DNA of 43,820 bases from Nitrospira sp. CG24E (GTDB taxonomy: Bacteria; Nitrospirota; Nitrospiria; Nitrospirales; Nitrospiraceae): positions 1-43,820 of the forward strand of contig NEWP02000005.1 in the NCBI GenBank assembly GCA_002869895.2. The letters are read 5' to 3'. The notes beneath the pieces are model-generated. The model saw nothing but the letters and a program-made list of their open reading frames with translations, had not been told where the DNA came from and ran no database searches. The position numbers and the translations under genes are program-made. The number at the start of each line of letters is the position of its first letter. The stretch's first letter is position 1. Shown in pieces: positions 9,765-32,514 of this stretch.

Positions 9765-10472
9765 CCACCACAGTCAGAATCCTCGGCGCTGTGCATTTCC
9801 CAAAATGGCTGAAATGTTGATTCTCTGAAGCGCGATAACTAATGCAAGTCTACTTCATAGCCAGCCCCATCTCCAAATGTCTTAGGCAAGGTTCTGACGA
9901 ACGCTAACAGGTAGTTGGCGGAGAGCCAGATTGGCATCCAACTATGCGCGTCGAACGGGGCCTCCCGTTTACCTCCCTGCAATATCACTCTTTCTCGCCA
10001 AAGAGACTCGCCGGACTATCCCTCATTGTGCGCATCGGACGCCTCATCATTTTAAATCATCCTTCCAAGCTCCCTTGCCTACCTTTTTTGGGGACAGCCT
10101 AGTCATCATCCTACTCGCTCCACCGAGGCGCTCTTGATTCTTCACCTGCTTAATAGGGGGCAGGCAAGCCATGCTTCACTGCGCGCATCAAGCGATCGTC
10201 ACCCATCTAAATGATCCCTCCATGCTCGCTCGTGTTCCCTCTCTTGGAGGGGCACCCATGTTGGTCTACGTGCGGCCGTCGAACGAGGCCCTTCTCAGGG
10301 CGCGCGTTCCGGGAGCACAGGACCAACGTGGGTGTCCTTCCATCCCCTTCATCGTGCGCGTTCCGCGAGCAGGAGGACGGCCAGGCTACCCTCTCTATTC
10401 TTCCAATTCCTGTTTCTTTTTCCCCATTTTACTTTCCGTCCCCTTCCAGAGCCGGACAATATTGTCTTTCCC
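9765..10472. other. Non-coding stretch downstream of amoC
   Basis: About 700 bases without a gene I can support. The part at 10249-10339 forms the long imperfect hairpin listed separately. The motif GCGCGTTCC with GAGCA recurs within 10290-10370. The part next to amoC (10380-10472) is pyrimidine-rich on the plus strand and could be a 3' UTR. Plus-strand open frames here overlap each other and lack ribosome binding sites. Confidence 0.4.
10249..10339. repeat. Long imperfect hairpin downstream of amoC
   Basis: GGGGCACCCATGTTGGTC is matched after about 55 bases by GACCAACGTGGGTGTCC, with only two mismatches. The interior (GAGGCCC ... GGGCGCGC) also pairs in part, so arms of about 40 bases fold around a TTCTCA loop. 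Seen from amoC this lies 134 bases past its stop. It could stop or stabilise the transcript. Its GC content and size resemble REP-type elements more than intrinsic terminators, since no U-run follows. Confidence 0.5.
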
Positions 10473-11270
10473 TTAGTAGGGGATCACATGCAAGCACTTC
10501 TTGTCCTCGTTGTTCCAGACCACATCGCAGAGGTTCGACATCCGGGCGACGATCTGGGCGGCCACGCCCCCGGTCCCGCCGAACAAGCCGCACCAGCCCA
10601 AGGTCACAAAGCCCCAGTGCAAGGGCGCGGCAAACAATTCATCGACGAACCAGAAGGCATGGCCCCACTCGTTGAGGCCCACATTCGGGAGAATCATCAT
10701 CGGCCCCACGATCGCTCCCACCAGCGGGAACGACACGTTCTTGCTGAACTGCGGCAACCGGGTCATGGCATACAGGTAACTGGCCACGCCCATCGTGATG
10801 TAGAGCGGAAAGGTGAAGTAGAACGCGATGATATGGCTGGCGGTGAAACTCGTATCGCGGATGATCACCTGGTGCCACGAGGCATCCTGCTCCAGGGTGT
10901 AGCTCCCCGCCCAGTACACGCCGAAGACGTACATGGCGAGCCACATCATCCAATAAAAGTACCGCTTGACCTCAGTAATGGGAGCCAGGTTGGCCAGGTC
11001 GCGATCCCGCGTACTCCAAAGCCAACCCAGAATCGCGGACGCATTGATGATGTTGGAAATCACGTTAAATTTAAACAGACTCATCCAGACATTCTCGAAT
11101 TCTGGGGTCATCGAATCTAACCCGTGGGAGAAGCCAAAGACGCGCTGAAATATCACCTCGGCGCTGACGGCCATCAACATGGCAAACCAGCTGATCTTAA
11201 AGATCCGCGAATCGTACCAGCGCGACATGTCATACCCGGGGTCGCGACCTCCGAACGTTGTACTAGCCAT
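10473..11270 (-). CDS. amoC: Ammonia monooxygenase subunit C, stand-alone copy
   Basis: A 265-residue integral membrane protein with about six membrane segments. It is the C subunit of the copper-dependent ammonia monooxygenase that turns ammonia into hydroxylamine. Both metal sites described for the homologous PmoC can be read with exact spacing: Asp129-x3-His133 with His146 (DASWH ... SH), and Asn200-x3-His204 with His218 (NEWGH ... H). The N-terminal [20 protein letters not shown] and the C-terminal NLCDVVWNN are typical of comammox and betaproteobacterial AmoC. AAGGAGGT seven bases before the ATG at 11270 fixes the start. No amoA or amoB follows, so this is an orphan amoC. Such copies are thought to assemble with AmoAB under special conditions. 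The gene appears intact. Confidence 0.95.
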
Positions 11271-11730
11271 GTTCCTTACCTCCTTGTGAAAGAAAAATAG
11301 AACAGAATGCGAAGCTCGGGAACTGTTCTTGTCGCTCCTGCTTCCGGCCAAGGACTCGTTGGAGGGCTATGATACAGCTGGTCGTTCCCTTCGCCACGCC
11401 TCTTCCGGCGGATCGAGGGCTCATGACAGTTTCGATCTTGGCCGGTTGCTCCAGGACCATTTCATGCTCTCGCTTGAGAAGGGGCAGCTGAATGGACTTG
11501 AGACCCCTATGCCTGCGTCTTTGAGGCCCATTGTTCGCGAGTCCTGCGCGAAAACTCGACTGTGCGGGCGCGCTAGCCTCCTTCCTTCAGCTCACGTTAC
11601 CGAAAAAGAAGGAGCCCCACGCTGCGCTCGGTCAGTCCAGTCCATGATTCATATCAACATATCGCATAGGCCATTGGACCTATGAGGACCAGGCGACGCA
11701 CATTAGAAAAGTTGAACGATACATGTTGAA
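11271..11730. other. Long leader and promoter region of amoC
   Basis: Upstream of the amoC ribosome binding site, about 640 bases separate amoC from the end of the Crp/Fnr-type regulator gene. I recognise no gene. The stretch 11271-11730 should hold the amoC promoter. The extent of the untranslated leader cannot be read by eye, and I did not find a convincing -10/-35 or symmetric Fnr box. The far part (11731-11845) contains a structured element listed separately. Confidence 0.35.
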
Positions 11731-11845
11731 TTGCCGGAATTGGCAGACGTGGGAGGATTTGAGCTGTTTGGATTTTCGAACCGCGTGCCGCGCGGCAAGC
11801 GCGATCCGAAGACTGAAAGTCGGGGTTCGAAATTCCGAACACTTC
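11731..11845 (+). other. Structured element with tRNA-like D-arm and T-arm words
   Basis: Plus-strand GGAATTGGCAGACG resembles a tRNA-Leu D-arm, and GGGGTTCGAAATTCC resembles a T-arm with a TTCGAAA loop. They are about 90 bases apart, too far for a normal tRNA, and the acceptor halves do not pair well. The 13-base word GGATTTTCGAACC (11770-11782) is also the near-exact complement of GGTTCGAAATTCC (11824-11836), around an inner stem TGCCGC/GCGGCA. It is either a degenerate tRNA relic or an independent structured RNA in the amoC upstream region. Confidence 0.4.
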
Positions 11846-11909
11846 GGCCTTTAGCCTTCAGCCTGCTTCACCTGTCACACTTCACAAATAGCGTTTGACC
11901 CTGTACGGT

Positions 11910-12620
11910 TCAGCACCGGGCAATTCTGGCGAGACGCTCAGGCTTCAACAACGTGATGGTCCTTCCATCGATGGTGAGCAACCCCTCATCCCGAAACACA
12001 CTGAGCAGGCGGATAGCGGTTTCAACCGTGGTCCCGGCCAACTCAGCCACTTCTTCCCGTTTGAGCGTGAGCCCAACCTGGACCTGATCGGCGCTTTTTT
12101 TACCGAATCGGTCGCCGAGTTCCACGAGCAGGCCGGCCAACCGCTCGCGAGCAGTCTTAAACGTGAGCTGGTCGAGCTGATCCATATTCACCCCAAGGTC
12201 GTTGCTGAGGAGTTGAATCAATTTGATCGCCAGTTGGGGATTCCGGTGGATGACCGAGAGGTAGCGCTCCCTCTCGATGACGCAGACTTGAGAGGGCTCC
12301 AACGTCTCGCACGTCACCTCGTGAAGCGCCTGCTTGCCGAATGCGTGCTTCTCGATCAGCTCACCAGGGCCTAAGATCTTGACGATCCGCCGTTGACCTC
12401 GCGCCGAAGAACGAGTCAGCTTGACCTTGCCCCTACACAACAAGTAGAGCCCCACACACAAGTGACCTTCATAGAAGACAGTCTGGTGAGACTCATAATC
12501 GAGGGAATGTTTGATGCGCTGAAATTCGGCGAGGTCGTCCCCTTCGAGGTCGCACAACACCGCCTTCGCGCGAAGCGTACAGGTGCCACAATTCCCGATA
12601 TGACAGGACTTCCGTTTCAT
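11910..12620 (-). CDS. Crp/Fnr-family transcription regulator with N-terminal cysteine cluster
   Basis: A 236-residue regulator. A cNMP-binding-like beta barrel spans about 30-120, a dimerisation helix about 125-155, and a C-terminal winged HTH about 165-225 with recognition-helix region KREEVAELAGTTVETAIRLL. Four cysteines at 6, 11, 14 and 23 (C-x4-C-x2-C-x8-C), plus others at 55, 62, 104 and 113, suggest an Fnr-type iron-sulphur cluster and so oxygen or NO sensing. The spacing is not the E. coli Fnr spacing, so this is inference. The Cys-rich protein gene ends 31 bases upstream, making a likely operon. amoC is the next gene on the same strand, about 640 bases on, and is a plausible target. 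Confidence 0.88.
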   Translation of the reverse strand: MKRKSCHIGNCGTCTLRAKAVLCDLEGDDLAEFQRIKHSLDYESHQTVFYEGHLCVGLYLLCRGKVKLTRSSARGQRRIVKILGPGELIEKHAFGKQALHEVTCETLEPSQVCVIERERYLSVIHRNPQLAIKLIQLLSNDLGVNMDQLDQLTFKTARERLAGLLVELGDRFGKKSADQVQVGLTLKREEVAELAGTTVETAIRLLSVFRDEGLLTIDGRTITLLKPERLARIARC

Positions 12621-12651: not shown

Positions 12652-13146
12652 TCACGGCATTCCGAGATTCGGACACCAAGCGATTTCTGCCAGTTCCACC
12701 GCCACACCGAATCGGTTCTCGACATCAATGGCGGACTCATCCTGAGTCATGCGCATACAGGGGGCGCAAATAAATTGGCACGAGACAGGACACCGTTGCC
12801 CTTCACAGCCCACCAGGGTATTGAAGAACGCTGCTTTCTCCAGGCAATACCGCTGTCGATCCGGCTCGTTCAGACTGTCCCGATAACAGTTCAGTCGCTG
12901 CCAGAGCTTCGCCAAACTTGAGATCCGTTTGGAGTCGATGCTTGCCCAGGCCCCGGAGAGTTCGATCGCTTCACCCACGAGCTGAAGCGCCAGGCCGATA
13001 CCGACCGGTAGCGAGGTGAAGATGGCGATCGCCATCTTCTGGTCGTTAACCCATTCCATCGTAAAACTCGGCGCCCGCCTGGCCAAGCTCAGGATCCGAG
13101 AGCTTTCTTCATCAGTCTGATAGGGGATATGAACGACGAGATGCAT
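12652..13146 (-). CDS. Cysteine-rich hypothetical protein upstream of the Crp/Fnr gene
   Basis: A 164-residue protein of unknown family. GAGGAGAG six bases before the ATG at 13146 sets the start. The N-terminal half (MHLVVHIPYQTDEESSRILS then MAIAIFTSLPVGIGLALQLV) looks like an alpha/beta domain with an amphipathic helix. The C-terminal half carries many cysteines: CYRDSLN, RYCLEK, GCEGQRCPVSCQFICAPCMR and WCPN. This pattern suggests metal or Fe-S binding. It precedes the regulator gene by 31 bases and is probably cotranscribed. It may be a cofactor partner or sensor for that regulator, but there is no direct evidence. Confidence 0.65.
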   Translation of the reverse strand: MHLVVHIPYQTDEESSRILSLARRAPSFTMEWVNDQKMAIAIFTSLPVGIGLALQLVGEAIELSGAWASIDSKRISSLAKLWQRLNCYRDSLNEPDRQRYCLEKAAFFNTLVGCEGQRCPVSCQFICAPCMRMTQDESAIDVENRFGVAVELAEIAWCPNLGMP

Positions 13147-13257
13147 GGCTAGCTCTCCTCTCGCTAGCTTTCTCCACTCTGTGCCGACAGTCGATGAGGC
13201 CGGCCAGTGCGGACACCGGCTCGGACCCGTCACGCGCTGCACCATCCTATGCTGGGT

Positions 13258-27741: not shown

Positions 27742-29352
27742 ATGTCGCATCGTCGGAAAAAACTCCTGACGACCGGTTTAGCCGGAGTGCTCTGTTCGAC
27801 CGCACTCTTCGGCCTCTCAACGGCTTACGCTGATGGGAAAAACAACCTGCATCTGCCCGGCATGAAGGACCGGCCTCACGCTCCGGAGAATTCCTTTACA
27901 CGCATGTTTCCTGAATTGCCGCCCTTTGCTCCACCGACCGATGAAGCACGAGAGCAGGCGAAGAAGCTGGGCGAAAAGGGCGGTCCCATCGATGCGTTGG
28001 ATAACCTGACCGATCCCATTCAGTCGATCACGAATCCCGCAGTATTCAGTCCCAACAATCCCGACAATCCCAATATGACAGCTGGCGTGACGTTCTTCGG
28101 CCAATTCCTGGACCACGATATCACGCTCGACCCACGATCTCCGTTGCTCGAACGAAGTAATCCCAAAAAAACGACGAACTTTCGCACCGCAGCATTCGAC
28201 CTGGACAGCGTGTACGGGAATGGGCCGGAGGGGTCCCCTGAACTGTATGACAGAACTTCCGGTGACTTTAAACTTCTCGTGGAACCCATTCCGGGCTCCG
28301 AATTGGTCTCCCGCAAGGGAGCGGTCCGTTTCGACCTACCACGCGACCCCAATAAAACCGCCCTCCTAGGCGACAGCCGGAACGACGAACACGTGATCCT
28401 GGCTCAATTTCATATGGCCATGCTTCGCTTTCACAACGCGGTGATCGACCGGCTCCGCGCCGACCCTGAGCATGCCGGTCAATCGGCTGATCGCCTGTTC
28501 AAACTGGCCCAACGCCAGGTCCGCTGGCACTACCAGTGGATCATCCTGCACGAATTTCTGCCGCTCACGATCGGGCAAGAGCGCGTCGATGACATCCTGA
28601 ACAAAGGCCTCCGATTCTATGATGCAGAGAAAAAGAATCCCTCGATTCCCATCGAATTTTCCGTGGCCGCCTACCGCTTCGGCCATTCGCAAATACGTCC
28701 GAGTTACCGCCTCAACTTTGGCCCCACCGCAACGCCGGCAACGCCATTCTTTGCCTTTCTCTTCGACGATACCCAGGACCCCAACGACCTGGATCCGAAC
28801 GATCTGCGCGGTGGGAAGCGCGCACCCCGTCGGTTTGTCGATTGGCAAACGTTCTTCGATTTCGGCGACGGAAATTTCCGTCCGAACAAACGGATCGACG
28901 GCAAGCTCTCCAGCGTCGTGATGTTACTGCCCGGCTCGCGGGGGCTGGCGCCCGGTCTGCCGGCCGACGGGGTCCAGTCCTTGGCCTCACGCAACTTGAT
29001 GCGCCACGTCAATTTCGGACTACCCTCAGGCCAGGCGATTGCGCGCAAGATGAGCGTACCCGTCTTGAGCCCGGCGCAGCTGGAGGCGCTCAGGCCGTTT
29101 AACATGGAGAAGAGCACACCCCTCTGGTTGTATATTCTAAAAGAAGCGGAACTCCTGGAGCAGGGGCTCCGCTTAGGACCCGTGGGCGGGCGCATCGTCG
29201 GAGAAGTGTTTATCGGCCTGCTGAAGGCCGATGAGACATCCTATCTGGCCGCGCGACCCAACTGGACGCCGGTGCTACCGTCTGCGACTGCTGGCGACTT
29301 TCGCATCACCGATCTGCTGACATTTGCCGGGGTGGTGCCTCCGCTGAACTAG
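27742..29352 (+). CDS. Exported animal-type haem peroxidase
   Basis: A 536-residue protein of the animal haem (peroxinectin/MPO) peroxidase superfamily. The signal peptide is LLTTGLAGVLCSTALFGLST...AYA. The distal site FFGQFLDHDITLDP has the catalytic His125 and calcium-binding Asp126. The proximal haem ligand is His315 in RFGHSQIRPSY. The FDLDSVYGNG and LGDSRNDEHVILAQFHMAML segments are also classic. These enzymes use hydrogen peroxide to oxidise halides or organics, and some bacterial relatives (MopA type) oxidise Mn(II). This one is short and lacks the calcium-binding RTX repeats of MopA. GAGGAGG before the ATG fixes the start. It converges with the vanadium-haloperoxidase-type gene. Confidence 0.9.
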   Translation: MSHRRKKLLTTGLAGVLCSTALFGLSTAYADGKNNLHLPGMKDRPHAPENSFTRMFPELPPFAPPTDEAREQAKKLGEKGGPIDALDNLTDPIQSITNPAVFSPNNPDNPNMTAGVTFFGQFLDHDITLDPRSPLLERSNPKKTTNFRTAAFDLDSVYGNGPEGSPELYDRTSGDFKLLVEPIPGSELVSRKGAVRFDLPRDPNKTALLGDSRNDEHVILAQFHMAMLRFHNAVIDRLRADPEHAGQSADRLFKLAQRQVRWHYQWIILHEFLPLTIGQERVDDILNKGLRFYDAEKKNPSIPIEFSVAAYRFGHSQIRPSYRLNFGPTATPATPFFAFLFDDTQDPNDLDPNDLRGGKRAPRRFVDWQTFFDFGDGNFRPNKRIDGKLSSVVMLLPGSRGLAPGLPADGVQSLASRNLMRHVNFGLPSGQAIARKMSVPVLSPAQLEALRPFNMEKSTPLWLYILKEAELLEQGLRLGPVGGRIVGEVFIGLLKADETSYLAARPNWTPVLPSATAGDFRITDLLTFAGVVPPLN

Positions 29353-29366
29353 CGGCGCACTCAATC

Positions 29367-29413
29367 GGTCGGGAGCCTTCATTGCCCTGACGGGTGAGAA
29401 AAGACTCCCGGCC
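29367..29413. terminator. Possible shared terminator hairpin
   Basis: GGTCGGGAG (29367-29375) and CTCCCGGCC (29405-29413) pair with one weak position, around a 29-base loop. The hairpin lies 14 bases past the peroxidase stop and 65 bases before the end of the convergent gene. That is the right place to separate the two transcripts. The long loop and the absence of a U-run make it a modest candidate. Confidence 0.35.
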
Positions 29414-29478
29414 ACTAGAACTTAAAAACATTTTTCAGTGATGGCGGGTGCAGGTGACGGAGGCGTGAATCAATCCCT

Positions 29479-31050
29479 TCATCGTCCCTTGCCTCGGTGA
29501 GGCTGCGGCTGCATCGCATGCTTGAACACATAGTCGGCCACGCGGTTACCCTGCGCAACCCCCTCAGTCGCATCGAACGCCCAATGAATGCCGAGATAGA
29601 TGCGGCTTTGGGCATTTTCCTTTTCCGCCTGCGAGAGGGAGGAGAAGCTGCGCTCCACTACCGGCCGCACAAGGCCATTATTGTCCCGTGTCATACCGTT
29701 AAATTCGTCCGAGACGAAGGTAAACGCGATGCGATCAGTTCGATAGAAGTTCCGCAGCATCTCGAAGAGCGCGCCTCCGAAGCCGGCATGCCCGGACGGA
29801 TATGCCGGAAAGGGTGGGGTGAAATTCGGTCCAGTGAGATTGCTGGCTGGCGCCCCAAGCGGTGTATAGGTTGTGTCTCCTGCCGTCGCGGGATTGCCGT
29901 CGCCGAGCCCGGTCGGCCCTGTGTCTTTATCGGCCTCGCGAATGCCGGTGACGGGGCGCCAGTACTGATAGTAGTATTTGGATTCCCATACAGCGATGCC
30001 GGCATCAGCCATCGCAACATTCACGAGGGCCAGAAGCCGCGCAAGTTCCAGGGGGTCCGTGTCCGTACCCATTTTGTGGGCAATACGCATAGCGATCTGA
30101 TTGTAGAGACGTGGCGGTGCACAGAGGCTGGGGGTCCCGTCATAGGCCCAGTAGATTCCGATTTGGGTTTGATCCGAGGTGCGCGTGGTCGGAGTCACCA
30201 GTCCATCGCCTCCCAGTGTCTTGGCCTCGTGATAGGCGGCGGCATACGCGGCACTATCGAGTCCGGGCGGCGGCGGCACACGGAACTGATCGGCTCGTTC
30301 GAGGACAAAGGGCTTGACGCCGCTCCAATAGGCACCCAAGGCAAGGGGAATCAGACTGATGGGATCTTGCCTCCACTTGCCGGGATCGTTGCTCGTGAGA
30401 AACTCCAGGCCGACGTGCGGTTCAGGACGTTGGGAACCATCGTCGGCTCGTGCAGCCAGAACGGCTGCCGCCGTCCGCCTGCCGAGCGCAATGCCGTTCA
30501 CCTTCAATCGTCCATCCGGAATCTCGGTCAGATCGTCCACAAGCTGCTCATCGAAGCTCGAAGCCTGTGAGGGAAAGAGCGCAACCAGTGTATCGTGGAC
30601 GGCCTGGGCGATCGCCGCCTTCATCGATGTGCCAAACGGAGCAGGTCCTACCCCGGTGTAACTCCTGTATTTGTGCTCACCCTCGATCGCGTTCACGGCA
30701 TCGAACATGGCAAGATGGACGATGGCCATCGCCCGACTCGCTCGTCCTGGCCCCAGTTGTTCGGCATATTTGGCCCGATTTTCTCCTGGTGCGACGGGCG
30801 TATGATCGAGTCCGGTTGCATCGATCGCAATCTGATTCCAATGCTGGACCCAGCCTGCAGCATCGGCCACAGCCCGTGGCCGATGGCGCGGATCGATCGG
30901 GATACGGGGGGCATGCTGCGGATCGGCCCCAAAACGCGGGCCAAACACGTCTCCGATCCCACCAGTAAATCCGCCTGCCCAAACAGTGCTGGTGGAAGCC
31001 AGGAACGACACGACTATGAGCGCTGCAATGAACTTTTCTGCTCGTATCAT
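29479..31050 (-). CDS. Exported vanadium-haloperoxidase/PAP2-family enzyme
   Basis: A 523-residue protein with a signal peptide (FIAALIVVSFLASTSTVWAG). The three vanadate/phosphate-binding motifs have the expected spacing: K-x6-RP at 358-366 (KYYYQYWRP), PSGH ending at His421 (YPSGHAGFGG), and SR-x5-H-x3-D with His489 (SRIYLGIHWAFD). These bind vanadate in haloperoxidases and phosphate in acid phosphatases. The long N-terminal helical half is typical of bacterial vanadium haloperoxidases. Either halide oxidation or phosphatase activity is possible, and the sequence does not decide. GGGAGGGAGAGGG before ATG 31050 sets the start. It follows the di-haem gene by 48 bases, so the two form an operon. 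Confidence 0.88.
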   Translation of the reverse strand: MIRAEKFIAALIVVSFLASTSTVWAGGFTGGIGDVFGPRFGADPQHAPRIPIDPRHRPRAVADAAGWVQHWNQIAIDATGLDHTPVAPGENRAKYAEQLGPGRASRAMAIVHLAMFDAVNAIEGEHKYRSYTGVGPAPFGTSMKAAIAQAVHDTLVALFPSQASSFDEQLVDDLTEIPDGRLKVNGIALGRRTAAAVLAARADDGSQRPEPHVGLEFLTSNDPGKWRQDPISLIPLALGAYWSGVKPFVLERADQFRVPPPPGLDSAAYAAAYHEAKTLGGDGLVTPTTRTSDQTQIGIYWAYDGTPSLCAPPRLYNQIAMRIAHKMGTDTDPLELARLLALVNVAMADAGIAVWESKYYYQYWRPVTGIREADKDTGPTGLGDGNPATAGDTTYTPLGAPASNLTGPNFTPPFPAYPSGHAGFGGALFEMLRNFYRTDRIAFTFVSDEFNGMTRDNNGLVRPVVERSFSSLSQAEKENAQSRIYLGIHWAFDATEGVAQGNRVADYVFKHAMQPQPHRGKGR

Positions 31051-31098
31051 GGTCCCTCTCCCTCCCACTTAGCCCAGACCAGACGAATAGACTCCCTG

Positions 31099-32514
31099 TC
31101 ACAGCGAACGGAGGAAGTTCAACAGATGCTGCTTATCGACCTCACTGAGCCGGTAGAACTGCATAACAACCTGGTTCGCCTCTGACGGCACATATCGCCC
31201 GCCGCCCGATCCGGCGTGAGCTTGAATTGCCTCAAGCAGATCTCTTGTCCGCCCATCATGCAGAAAAAATATCCGCTTCCCGAGACACCACAAAGGCGCC
31301 GTGCGGAACTCATCGCCGCCTGCAGCGCCTTGAACAATGTCGTCGGCTAATTCATGGCCCATGTTATGAAGCACGAGGTCCGAGTAGAGATTCACATCTT
31401 TGTCCTGTAGCGCGGTCACCGCGACCCTCTTGCCTGTATGGAGTGTCGGCGTGTGGCACATGGCACAGCCGACGTCGGTAAACAGCTTTCGTCCATGAAC
31501 GATAGACACTTCGTCCTTCGCAGGCTCCGGAGGGGCGAGCAGGCGCATGAACAGCGCAAACTTCACCACATCGCCGGGCACATCCAGCGGATTTGTGGCA
31601 TCGATGTTGGTCCGATTTTCAGGCGTGGCATTGAACCGGCAGGCCGGCGCTTCATCCCGCTTCTGGGGAAACAGTTCGTTCGTGATTCCCTGCTCGACGT
31701 TGTAGGCTTCGCCTGAAAAGATTTCGAGCGATTTATTCTGGGCCTTCCAGCCGAATCGAGTGACCGTACCGTCATTCCCGCTGGTATTGGGACGCCCACT
31801 CGTACGGTTAGCACGACCCCGAATCCCCAATGACTGTTTCGCCGCACTGTGCGCGTACAAATTGGCGAGAATCGTGTCGTCATCGATCGCTTCGATCAAG
31901 CCGGCGCCGAACAGGGGCGTGGGAATGCGAAACACCACATTCTGGCGGGCTACGGCGGAGCGGAAATCCGGCTGCTGAAGCCAGCAGCCCGGCGCGTCGG
32001 TTCGCCTGCTGATCGTAAAGAGCGCGTGGACACCGCCATCGACTGTGCCGTCTGCATGATGCTTAAATCTGGCCTCGCGCACCGGACCGTCCTTCCTGAT
32101 AAACGAAGGAACGTCATTGTTCGCCCCAGCCTTCTTCGCCACTTCTACCGGTGGATTGACGAACGGGCTGGTCCCACCGATATCCGGTTGCGCGTGACAA
32201 CCGCCGCAACTGTCCAAGTTGAAGCGCGGCCCGAGACCAAGCTCCGTGTCTTCCCCGTCGACGGTGCAGCCGAGTACCGACTGCACTTCCTCAAACTGTT
32301 CTTTACCATTCTCAAACACCTTCTTTTCCTGGAAGGTCAGCCCCTGCAACATCCCGCCGGCACCGGACGGACCCTTCCGGACGCCGGAATCCTGCGCAGT
32401 GAATCGCCCGATTTGCGACTGCACATCCTCGAAAAATGAACCGCTGATGATCATGAATAGGACCAACGCCAGGAGCACAAGAGCGAATCGTGTCTGTGTG
32501 ATAGGCGACATCAT
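31099..32514 (-). CDS. Di-haem DUF1111-type oxidoreductase
   Basis: A 471-residue exported protein with an N-terminal membrane segment (FALVLLALVLFMIISGSFF). Two c-type haem sites are CGGCH at 103-107 and CAMCH at 350-354. The surrounding FNLDSCGGCHAQPDIGG and the C-terminal GRKLFTDVGCAMCHTPTLHT with LWCLGKRIFFLHDGRTRDL are typical of the DUF1111 di-haem family (related to di-haem peroxidases and thiol oxidoreductase-like proteins). It needs the cytochrome c maturation system, which is elsewhere. As first gene of the operon with the vanadium-type enzyme, it may supply or remove electrons. GGAGG five bases before the first ATG supports the start. Confidence 0.88.
   Translation of the reverse strand: MMSPITQTRFALVLLALVLFMIISGSFFEDVQSQIGRFTAQDSGVRKGPSGAGGMLQGLTFQEKKVFENGKEQFEEVQSVLGCTVDGEDTELGLGPRFNLDSCGGCHAQPDIGGTSPFVNPPVEVAKKAGANNDVPSFIRKDGPVREARFKHHADGTVDGGVHALFTISRRTDAPGCWLQQPDFRSAVARQNVVFRIPTPLFGAGLIEAIDDDTILANLYAHSAAKQSLGIRGRANRTSGRPNTSGNDGTVTRFGWKAQNKSLEIFSGEAYNVEQGITNELFPQKRDEAPACRFNATPENRTNIDATNPLDVPGDVVKFALFMRLLAPPEPAKDEVSIVHGRKLFTDVGCAMCHTPTLHTGKRVAVTALQDKDVNLYSDLVLHNMGHELADDIVQGAAGGDEFRTAPLWCLGKRIFFLHDGRTRDLLEAIQAHAGSGGGRYVPSEANQVVMQFYRLSEVDKQHLLNFLRSL

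Follow-up and report, generated by a model that had tools for sequence, protein, structure and literature searches.

The closest described counterparts of the locus analyzed here are the singleton amoC genes of comammox Nitrospira, which exist as stand-alone copies beside an amoCAB operon; according to a review, all comammox genomes contain at least one such non-operonal copy (PMC6311188). The same text cites amoC3 of Nitrosomonas europaea as a stand-alone, diverged gene that is regulated apart from the operon, has been proposed to supply a stress subunit and is reported to be under a stress sigma factor (Berube and Stahl 2012, via PMC6311188). In the Nitrosomonadales, amoCAB and hao undergo concerted evolution, with paralogues in syntenic places being homogenized within a genome (PMC6053082). 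Under O2 limitation, operon transcripts of N. europaea decreased by up to 3.3-fold and the singleton amoC increased 1.9-fold, neither change being significant (PMC6967387).

We analyzed a stretch of 43,820 bases (the window), which constitutes the first part of the 83,475-bp contig C45 and belongs to a 3.45-Mb genome bin of 99 contigs that is 98% complete. The closest relatives of this genome are MAGs labelled Nitrospira, Nitrospiraceae or Nitrospirae, and because these include RCB (Rifle clade B), CG24C and WB-IL-04, we assign it by relatedness to the clade B comammox-type Nitrospira. Like the comammox singletons, the amoC of the window is a stand-alone gene beside an amoCAB operon in Nitrospira; it is distinguished by a hemerythrin remnant and an FNR-like regulator, whereas the accessible text of the review gives no context or regulation for the singletons (PMC6311188). 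With amoC3, as portrayed there, it shares the properties of a stand-alone, diverged AmoC; regulation distinct from the operon, by a stress sigma factor and with induction in starvation recovery, is reported for amoC3, whereas the candidate regulator here is FNR-like. Orthology to the amoC3-type singletons of AOB was rejected, because the protein is 58–64% identical to the AOB copies found, whether from operons or stand-alone, compared with at least 82% to comammox clade B, and groups within clade B comammox at 100/99 in a tree built without the AOB singletons. A regulator-hemerythrin-amoC arrangement was not found described in the literature searched, of which subscription papers formed only a small part, and the one paper retrieved there for hemerythrin with comammox had an unrelated title. 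The features of the locus are collected in Table 1.

Table 1. Positions of the amoC locus features and of selected neighbors within the window.
Feature	Position	Strand	Remarks
3' ends of two further amoC copies, same genome	10469..10524	minus	56 bp identical to contig ends of C34 and C28
Stand-alone amoC	10473..11270	minus	265 aa; ATG at 11270, stop at 10473; both metal-ligand triads intact
3' tract of amoC (~300 bp), apparently homogenized by recombination	10473..10778	minus	2 mismatches/300 bp to CG24C L014
Ribosome site AAGGAGGT of amoC	about 11278-11285	minus	
Degraded remnant, 5' half of hemerythrin gene	11311..11526	minus	Runs into amoC leader
FNR-box-like site TTGATATGAATCAT	11644..11657	minus	9/10 to TTGATNNNNATCAA, at -387, inside locus-conserved block after ATAGGTCYAATGGCCTA
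Conserved motif ATAGGTCYAATGGCCTA	11667..11683	minus	Downstream of regulator gene
Crp/FNR-family regulator, 236 aa	11910..12620	minus	Upstream of amoC, same strand
Cysteine-containing hypothetical protein	12652..13245	minus	Conserved neighbor, also near orphan amoC in clade A
Multicopper oxidase, 1647 aa	17579-22522	minus	Weak similarity to MnxG (manganese oxidation)

The sequence-only reading had described an intact amoC with both copper-site triads, and this description was borne out. All six metal ligands (Asp129/His133/His146 and Asn200/His204/His218) are present with the spacing known from PmoC; they form invariant columns in an alignment of 28 AmoC sequences from comammox bacteria and AOB, and are retained in 81 of 83 amoC copies, the remaining two being truncated or ambiguous at those positions. 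The protein scored 344.5 bits against the Pfam AmoC family (curated cut-off 26.7) and 337.5 bits against the AmoC-specific NCBI equivalog NF041641 (cut-off 319), and its top solved relatives were the AMO subunit C chains 9pxf, 9leg and 9cl6, which ranked above every PmoC chain. We therefore rejected a PmoC identity, and with its place among bacterial AmoC in the tree the earlier assignment to AmoC, rather than to PmoC, held. In comparisons with other copies, dN/dS was 0.07–0.16 overall and 0.09–0.26 in the 5' third; purifying selection acts on this intact gene. The protein carries Phe at the nearly invariant Trp66. An AlphaFold2 model built from the 28-sequence input had a mean pLDDT of 56.7, too low for use in a fold comparison.

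No amoA or amoB adjoins the gene, as had been proposed: a genome-wide search placed the only amoA and amoB matches on contig C58, which starts inside amoA and thus cuts the gene at its edge. Contigs C34 and C28 each have the final 55–56 bp of an amoC at one end, beyond which their flanks differ; the genome holds at least three amoC copies, plus presumably an operon copy upstream of amoA. The stand-alone state is therefore ordinary, given the review's count of at least one non-operonal copy in every comammox genome, and its rarity had been overstated in the initial assessment. The operon amoC lies outside the bin, and operon and orphan copies were compared through sister genomes. In two of these (G015 and G019), one amoC lies 5' of amoA-amoB, others stand ahead of a CBS/universal-stress stretch, the arrangement found on C28, or of an esterase-like gene, the arrangement on C34, and there are copies elsewhere as well; three or more copies at different places are found in clade B genomes. 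PF13447 (hydroxylamine dehydrogenase) was not found in the window bin or in CG24C; in the genus, 12 of 32 genomes have it, the sister G015 among them. We ascribe its lack in the window bin to a gap in binning close to the amo operon rather than to a true absence. Together with the start of C58 inside amoA, this pattern makes it seem that contigs at the amo operon were lost from the bins.

Several other amoC regions were recorded along the way. On C28 (G000, L008) and on contig C26 of G015 (L129), the genes after an orphan amoC encode CBS-domain, universal-stress and YbaK-like proteins, along with a nirK, and the C28 region also carries a Cache/PAS histidine kinase and a response regulator. RSF11 (L021:8626-10777) has two tandem amoC genes about 580 bp apart, the frame of the second extending to 347 aa.

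The regulator upstream of amoC combines a cNMP-binding fold (PF00027) with a Crp helix-turn-helix (PF13545), and its Cys11, Cys14, Cys23 and Cys113 are invariant in nine orthologues and two paralogues. Three N-terminal cysteines and a central one form the pattern of Fe-S FNR proteins; the cysteine spacing in this regulator is unlike that of E. coli FNR. The NCBIfam models FnrL and Fnr gave the top matches but stayed below threshold (91.5 and 88.2 bits, against cut-offs of 300 and 228), so the domain evidence designates the protein as FNR-like only, not as FNR proper; solved FNR regulators were among its structural relatives.

Orthologues of the regulator occur in 9 of 32 genomes of the genus (the window genome counted), and in six clade B genomes (the window genome, RCB, JACQEY, CG24C, GL140 and G019) amoC follows. 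The GL140 copy at this locus (L106/L031) contains an in-frame TAG and may be a pseudogene or reflect a sequencing error. In G014 and G015 the regulator is present with neither amoC nor hemerythrin behind it, so the locus appears to have been lost or remodelled in places. In the sister genome G016, the conserved block precedes an intact hemerythrin gene of 182 aa (PF01814, E=1.4e-14), after which comes a gene for an outer-membrane-like protein; amoC is lacking there. In the six amoC-bearing genomes, the match to G016 continues through the 5' half of the hemerythrin gene, interrupted by deletions and, in some genomes, by stops; G019 retains only the last stretch of the remnant. All six depart from G016 at one point, just after the codons for ...RKQERQEQF, and the amoC ribosome site lies within about 45 bases; in RCB, JACQEY, CG24C and GL140 the same outer-membrane gene follows amoC. 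Because the six genomes diverge from G016 at one point straight into amoC, the simplest reading of the alignment is that a single event in an ancestor put amoC in place of the hemerythrin 3' half, and amoC probably took over the hemerythrin promoter. A working hemerythrin gene upstream of amoC was rejected, since its 3' half is gone in every amoC-bearing genome and internal deletions or stops are present.

Between regulator and remnant, the ATAGGTCYAATGGCCTA motif occurs exactly once per genome in seven genomes, each time downstream of the regulator gene, with no match in a reversed control. The FNR-box-like site beside it matches the FNR consensus at 9 of 10 positions in the window and at 7–8 of 10 in relatives; by our own rough estimate, for a site sought after the fact, a match of at least 9/10 would arise by chance in 700 bp with a probability of 0.02. 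A scan of positions 10200-12000 found no sigma-70-like promoter or terminator. A short leader motif near -40 that is common to most other clade B amoC copies, the operon copy included, is missing at the window gene: the best match in the Crp-type copies is 8–11 of 17 at varying positions, compared with 11–17 of 17 near -40 in most others.

The coding sequence itself has the appearance of a mosaic. Compared with an amoC copy from another place in CG24C (L014), the window gene has 2 mismatches in the 3' 300 bp and 78 in the 492 bp upstream, a split that differs from the splits against nine other copies (Fisher p 1e-5 to 8e-9). From 5' to 3', dS between the two genes runs 0.99/0.47/0.03, against a window-CG24C background of 0.67–1.29 for nhaD, the peroxidase, amoA and amoB, and 0.37 for the regulator gene. 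Relative to G015, dS in the 3' third (0.26) equals the genome background (0.26–0.49, nirK 0.80), and that in the 5' third (1.04) lies above it; the L014 copy and G015 remain close across the whole gene (0.20/0.08/0.26). In the whole-gene DNA tree, the regulator-locus copies of RCB, JACQEY and CG24C form one clade (100/99), and the window copy falls outside it and joins L014 and the G015 copy (100/100). Trees from the two halves of the gene disagree. Within a six-row group, the window copy has the greatest divergence in its 5' third (branch 0.14). In the 3'-half trees the operon, CBS, esterase-associated and stand-alone copies of G015 cluster together. Within each of G015 and G019, the 3' ends of the operon, CBS and esterase-associated copies hardly differ; three of the G019 copies show no difference at all over the stretch they have in common.

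These comparisons show a 5' third with the character of a diverged paralogue and a coding sequence that, above all in its last ~300 bp, appears to have been overwritten through recombination with other amoC copies. The drop in dS, the conflict between half-trees and the common 3' ends within sister genomes indicate that amoC copies recombine within clade B genomes, chiefly at the 3' end, and apparently between genomes too. The L014 gene (L014:10001-10789) is much closer to the G015/window lineage than other parts of the CG24C genome are, which suggests that individual amoC copies have moved between species of clade B. In the Nitrosomonadales nearly the full gene is homogenized (PMC6053082), whereas here the effect is mainly on the 3' part, the 5' third and the upstream region being locus-specific.

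We put the probability at slightly better than even (about 0.55) that this gene encodes a functional extra AmoC subunit and has captured the regulation of another gene. In this account the FNR-like protein, which probably senses O2 or NO through an Fe-S cluster, would bind the conserved block and drive amoC at low O2 or high NO. The orphan AmoC could then replace or supplement the operon AmoC in the same AmoA/AmoB complex, while recombination would keep its AmoA/B- and metal-binding part compatible and leave the upstream control different. A condition-specific role, as suggested in the sequence-only reading, may apply, with support from the FNR-type regulator, the conserved block and the upstream hemerythrin remnant rather than from copper genes. 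The full scenario is more tentative, and we hold it to be doubtful in its entirety: that in clade B comammox an AmoC isoform came under an O2/NO-sensing FNR-like regulator via hemerythrin replacement, such that AMO subunit composition shifts when oxygen is short and gene conversion keeps the rest of the protein matched to the operon copy. Against captured regulation stand the weaker FNR-box match in relatives (7–8 of 10), the long distance of about 390 bp between the FNR-box-like site and the amoC ATG, with no sigma-70-like promoter found in that interval, the lack of synteny in the downstream flank, and the nearest relative, G015, which has the regulator without amoC at the locus, so the regulator-amoC arrangement is not essential in the group. 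The transcript changes of N. europaea under O2 limitation would fit FNR-type control by analogy but prove nothing for the window copy.

The main rival to captured regulation holds that the gene serves dosage alone: several amoC genes, interchangeable with one another, would raise the supply of AmoC, and the upstream region would be a mere landing place. The three or more amoC copies scattered over clade B genomes agree with this, as does the homogenization of 3' ends within genomes, which selection for dosage would favor and which in the Nitrosomonadales has been tied to dosage (PMC6053082). What makes this the less probable account, at perhaps half the weight of captured regulation, is that six genomes have kept the regulator and upstream block around amoC whereas the intervening hemerythrin remnant is decaying, and that the leader differs from those of other amoC copies.

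It is also conceivable, though unlikely, that the mosaic is in part an assembly artifact, the 5' end and upstream region being right and the 3' part and downstream flank having been joined from another copy or a co-occurring strain. C34 and C28 end in the same 55–56 bp, which is typical of a k-mer junction; the 3' end is nearly identical to that of a genome, CG24C, whose other genes are far more distant; and the flank downstream of the window amoC is syntenic with no relative examined. Diverged 5' ends joined to common 3' ends, however, recur independently in G015 and G019, the closeness of L014 to G015 over the whole gene speaks for interspecies transfer rather than one misjoined contig, and the 5' junction between hemerythrin remnant and amoC is reproduced in six genomes. 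That the gene is a relict falling out of use, a view for which the long 5' branch, the Phe at position 66, the TAG of the GL140 copy and the missing G015 copy could be cited, is highly improbable given the low dN/dS even in the 5' third, the retention of every ligand and a frame free of stops and frameshifts.

We know of no clade B comammox isolate, and for the role of extra amoC copies in comammox the locus offers a testable candidate with a named regulator and a short conserved site. The amoC here has an upstream region that derives from a gene whose product is of an oxygen-binding type, and this amoC may be switched on by conditions other than those of the main copy. Since amoC copies recombine, their 3' ends would be poor markers for phylogeny, read mapping and the separation of paralogues in transcriptomes.

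The context of copper and redox genes emphasized in the sequence-only reading applies only loosely: the immediate neighbors are the FNR-type regulator, a hypothetical protein and a DUF3800 protein, and the start of the multicopper oxidase gene lies 11 kb upstream of the amoC start codon. A copper cluster was rejected as an explanation, the oxidase being far off and, in G015, standing beside the regulator without amoC. The oxidase gene adjoins two genes for FGE-type proteins and one for a carboxypeptidase-regulatory-like protein, and a related cluster accompanies the regulator in CG24C, JACQEY, GL140 and G015 and, in clade A, lies close to orphan amoC. In the clade A loci L070, L074 and L076, a diverged orphan amoC is followed by a homologue of the cysteine-containing hypothetical protein, by the same outer-membrane gene and by a large multicopper oxidase; a sensor-kinase-like match lies upstream. 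Positions 10205-10400 of the window weakly match unrelated places elsewhere in clade B and are possibly a dispersed repeat near the break in synteny downstream of amoC. Farther along, at 27742-32514, genes for an animal-type haem peroxidase, a vanadium-chloroperoxidase-like protein and a di-haem oxidoreductase stand in a row, and in G015 the same row adjoins an amoC 5' end.
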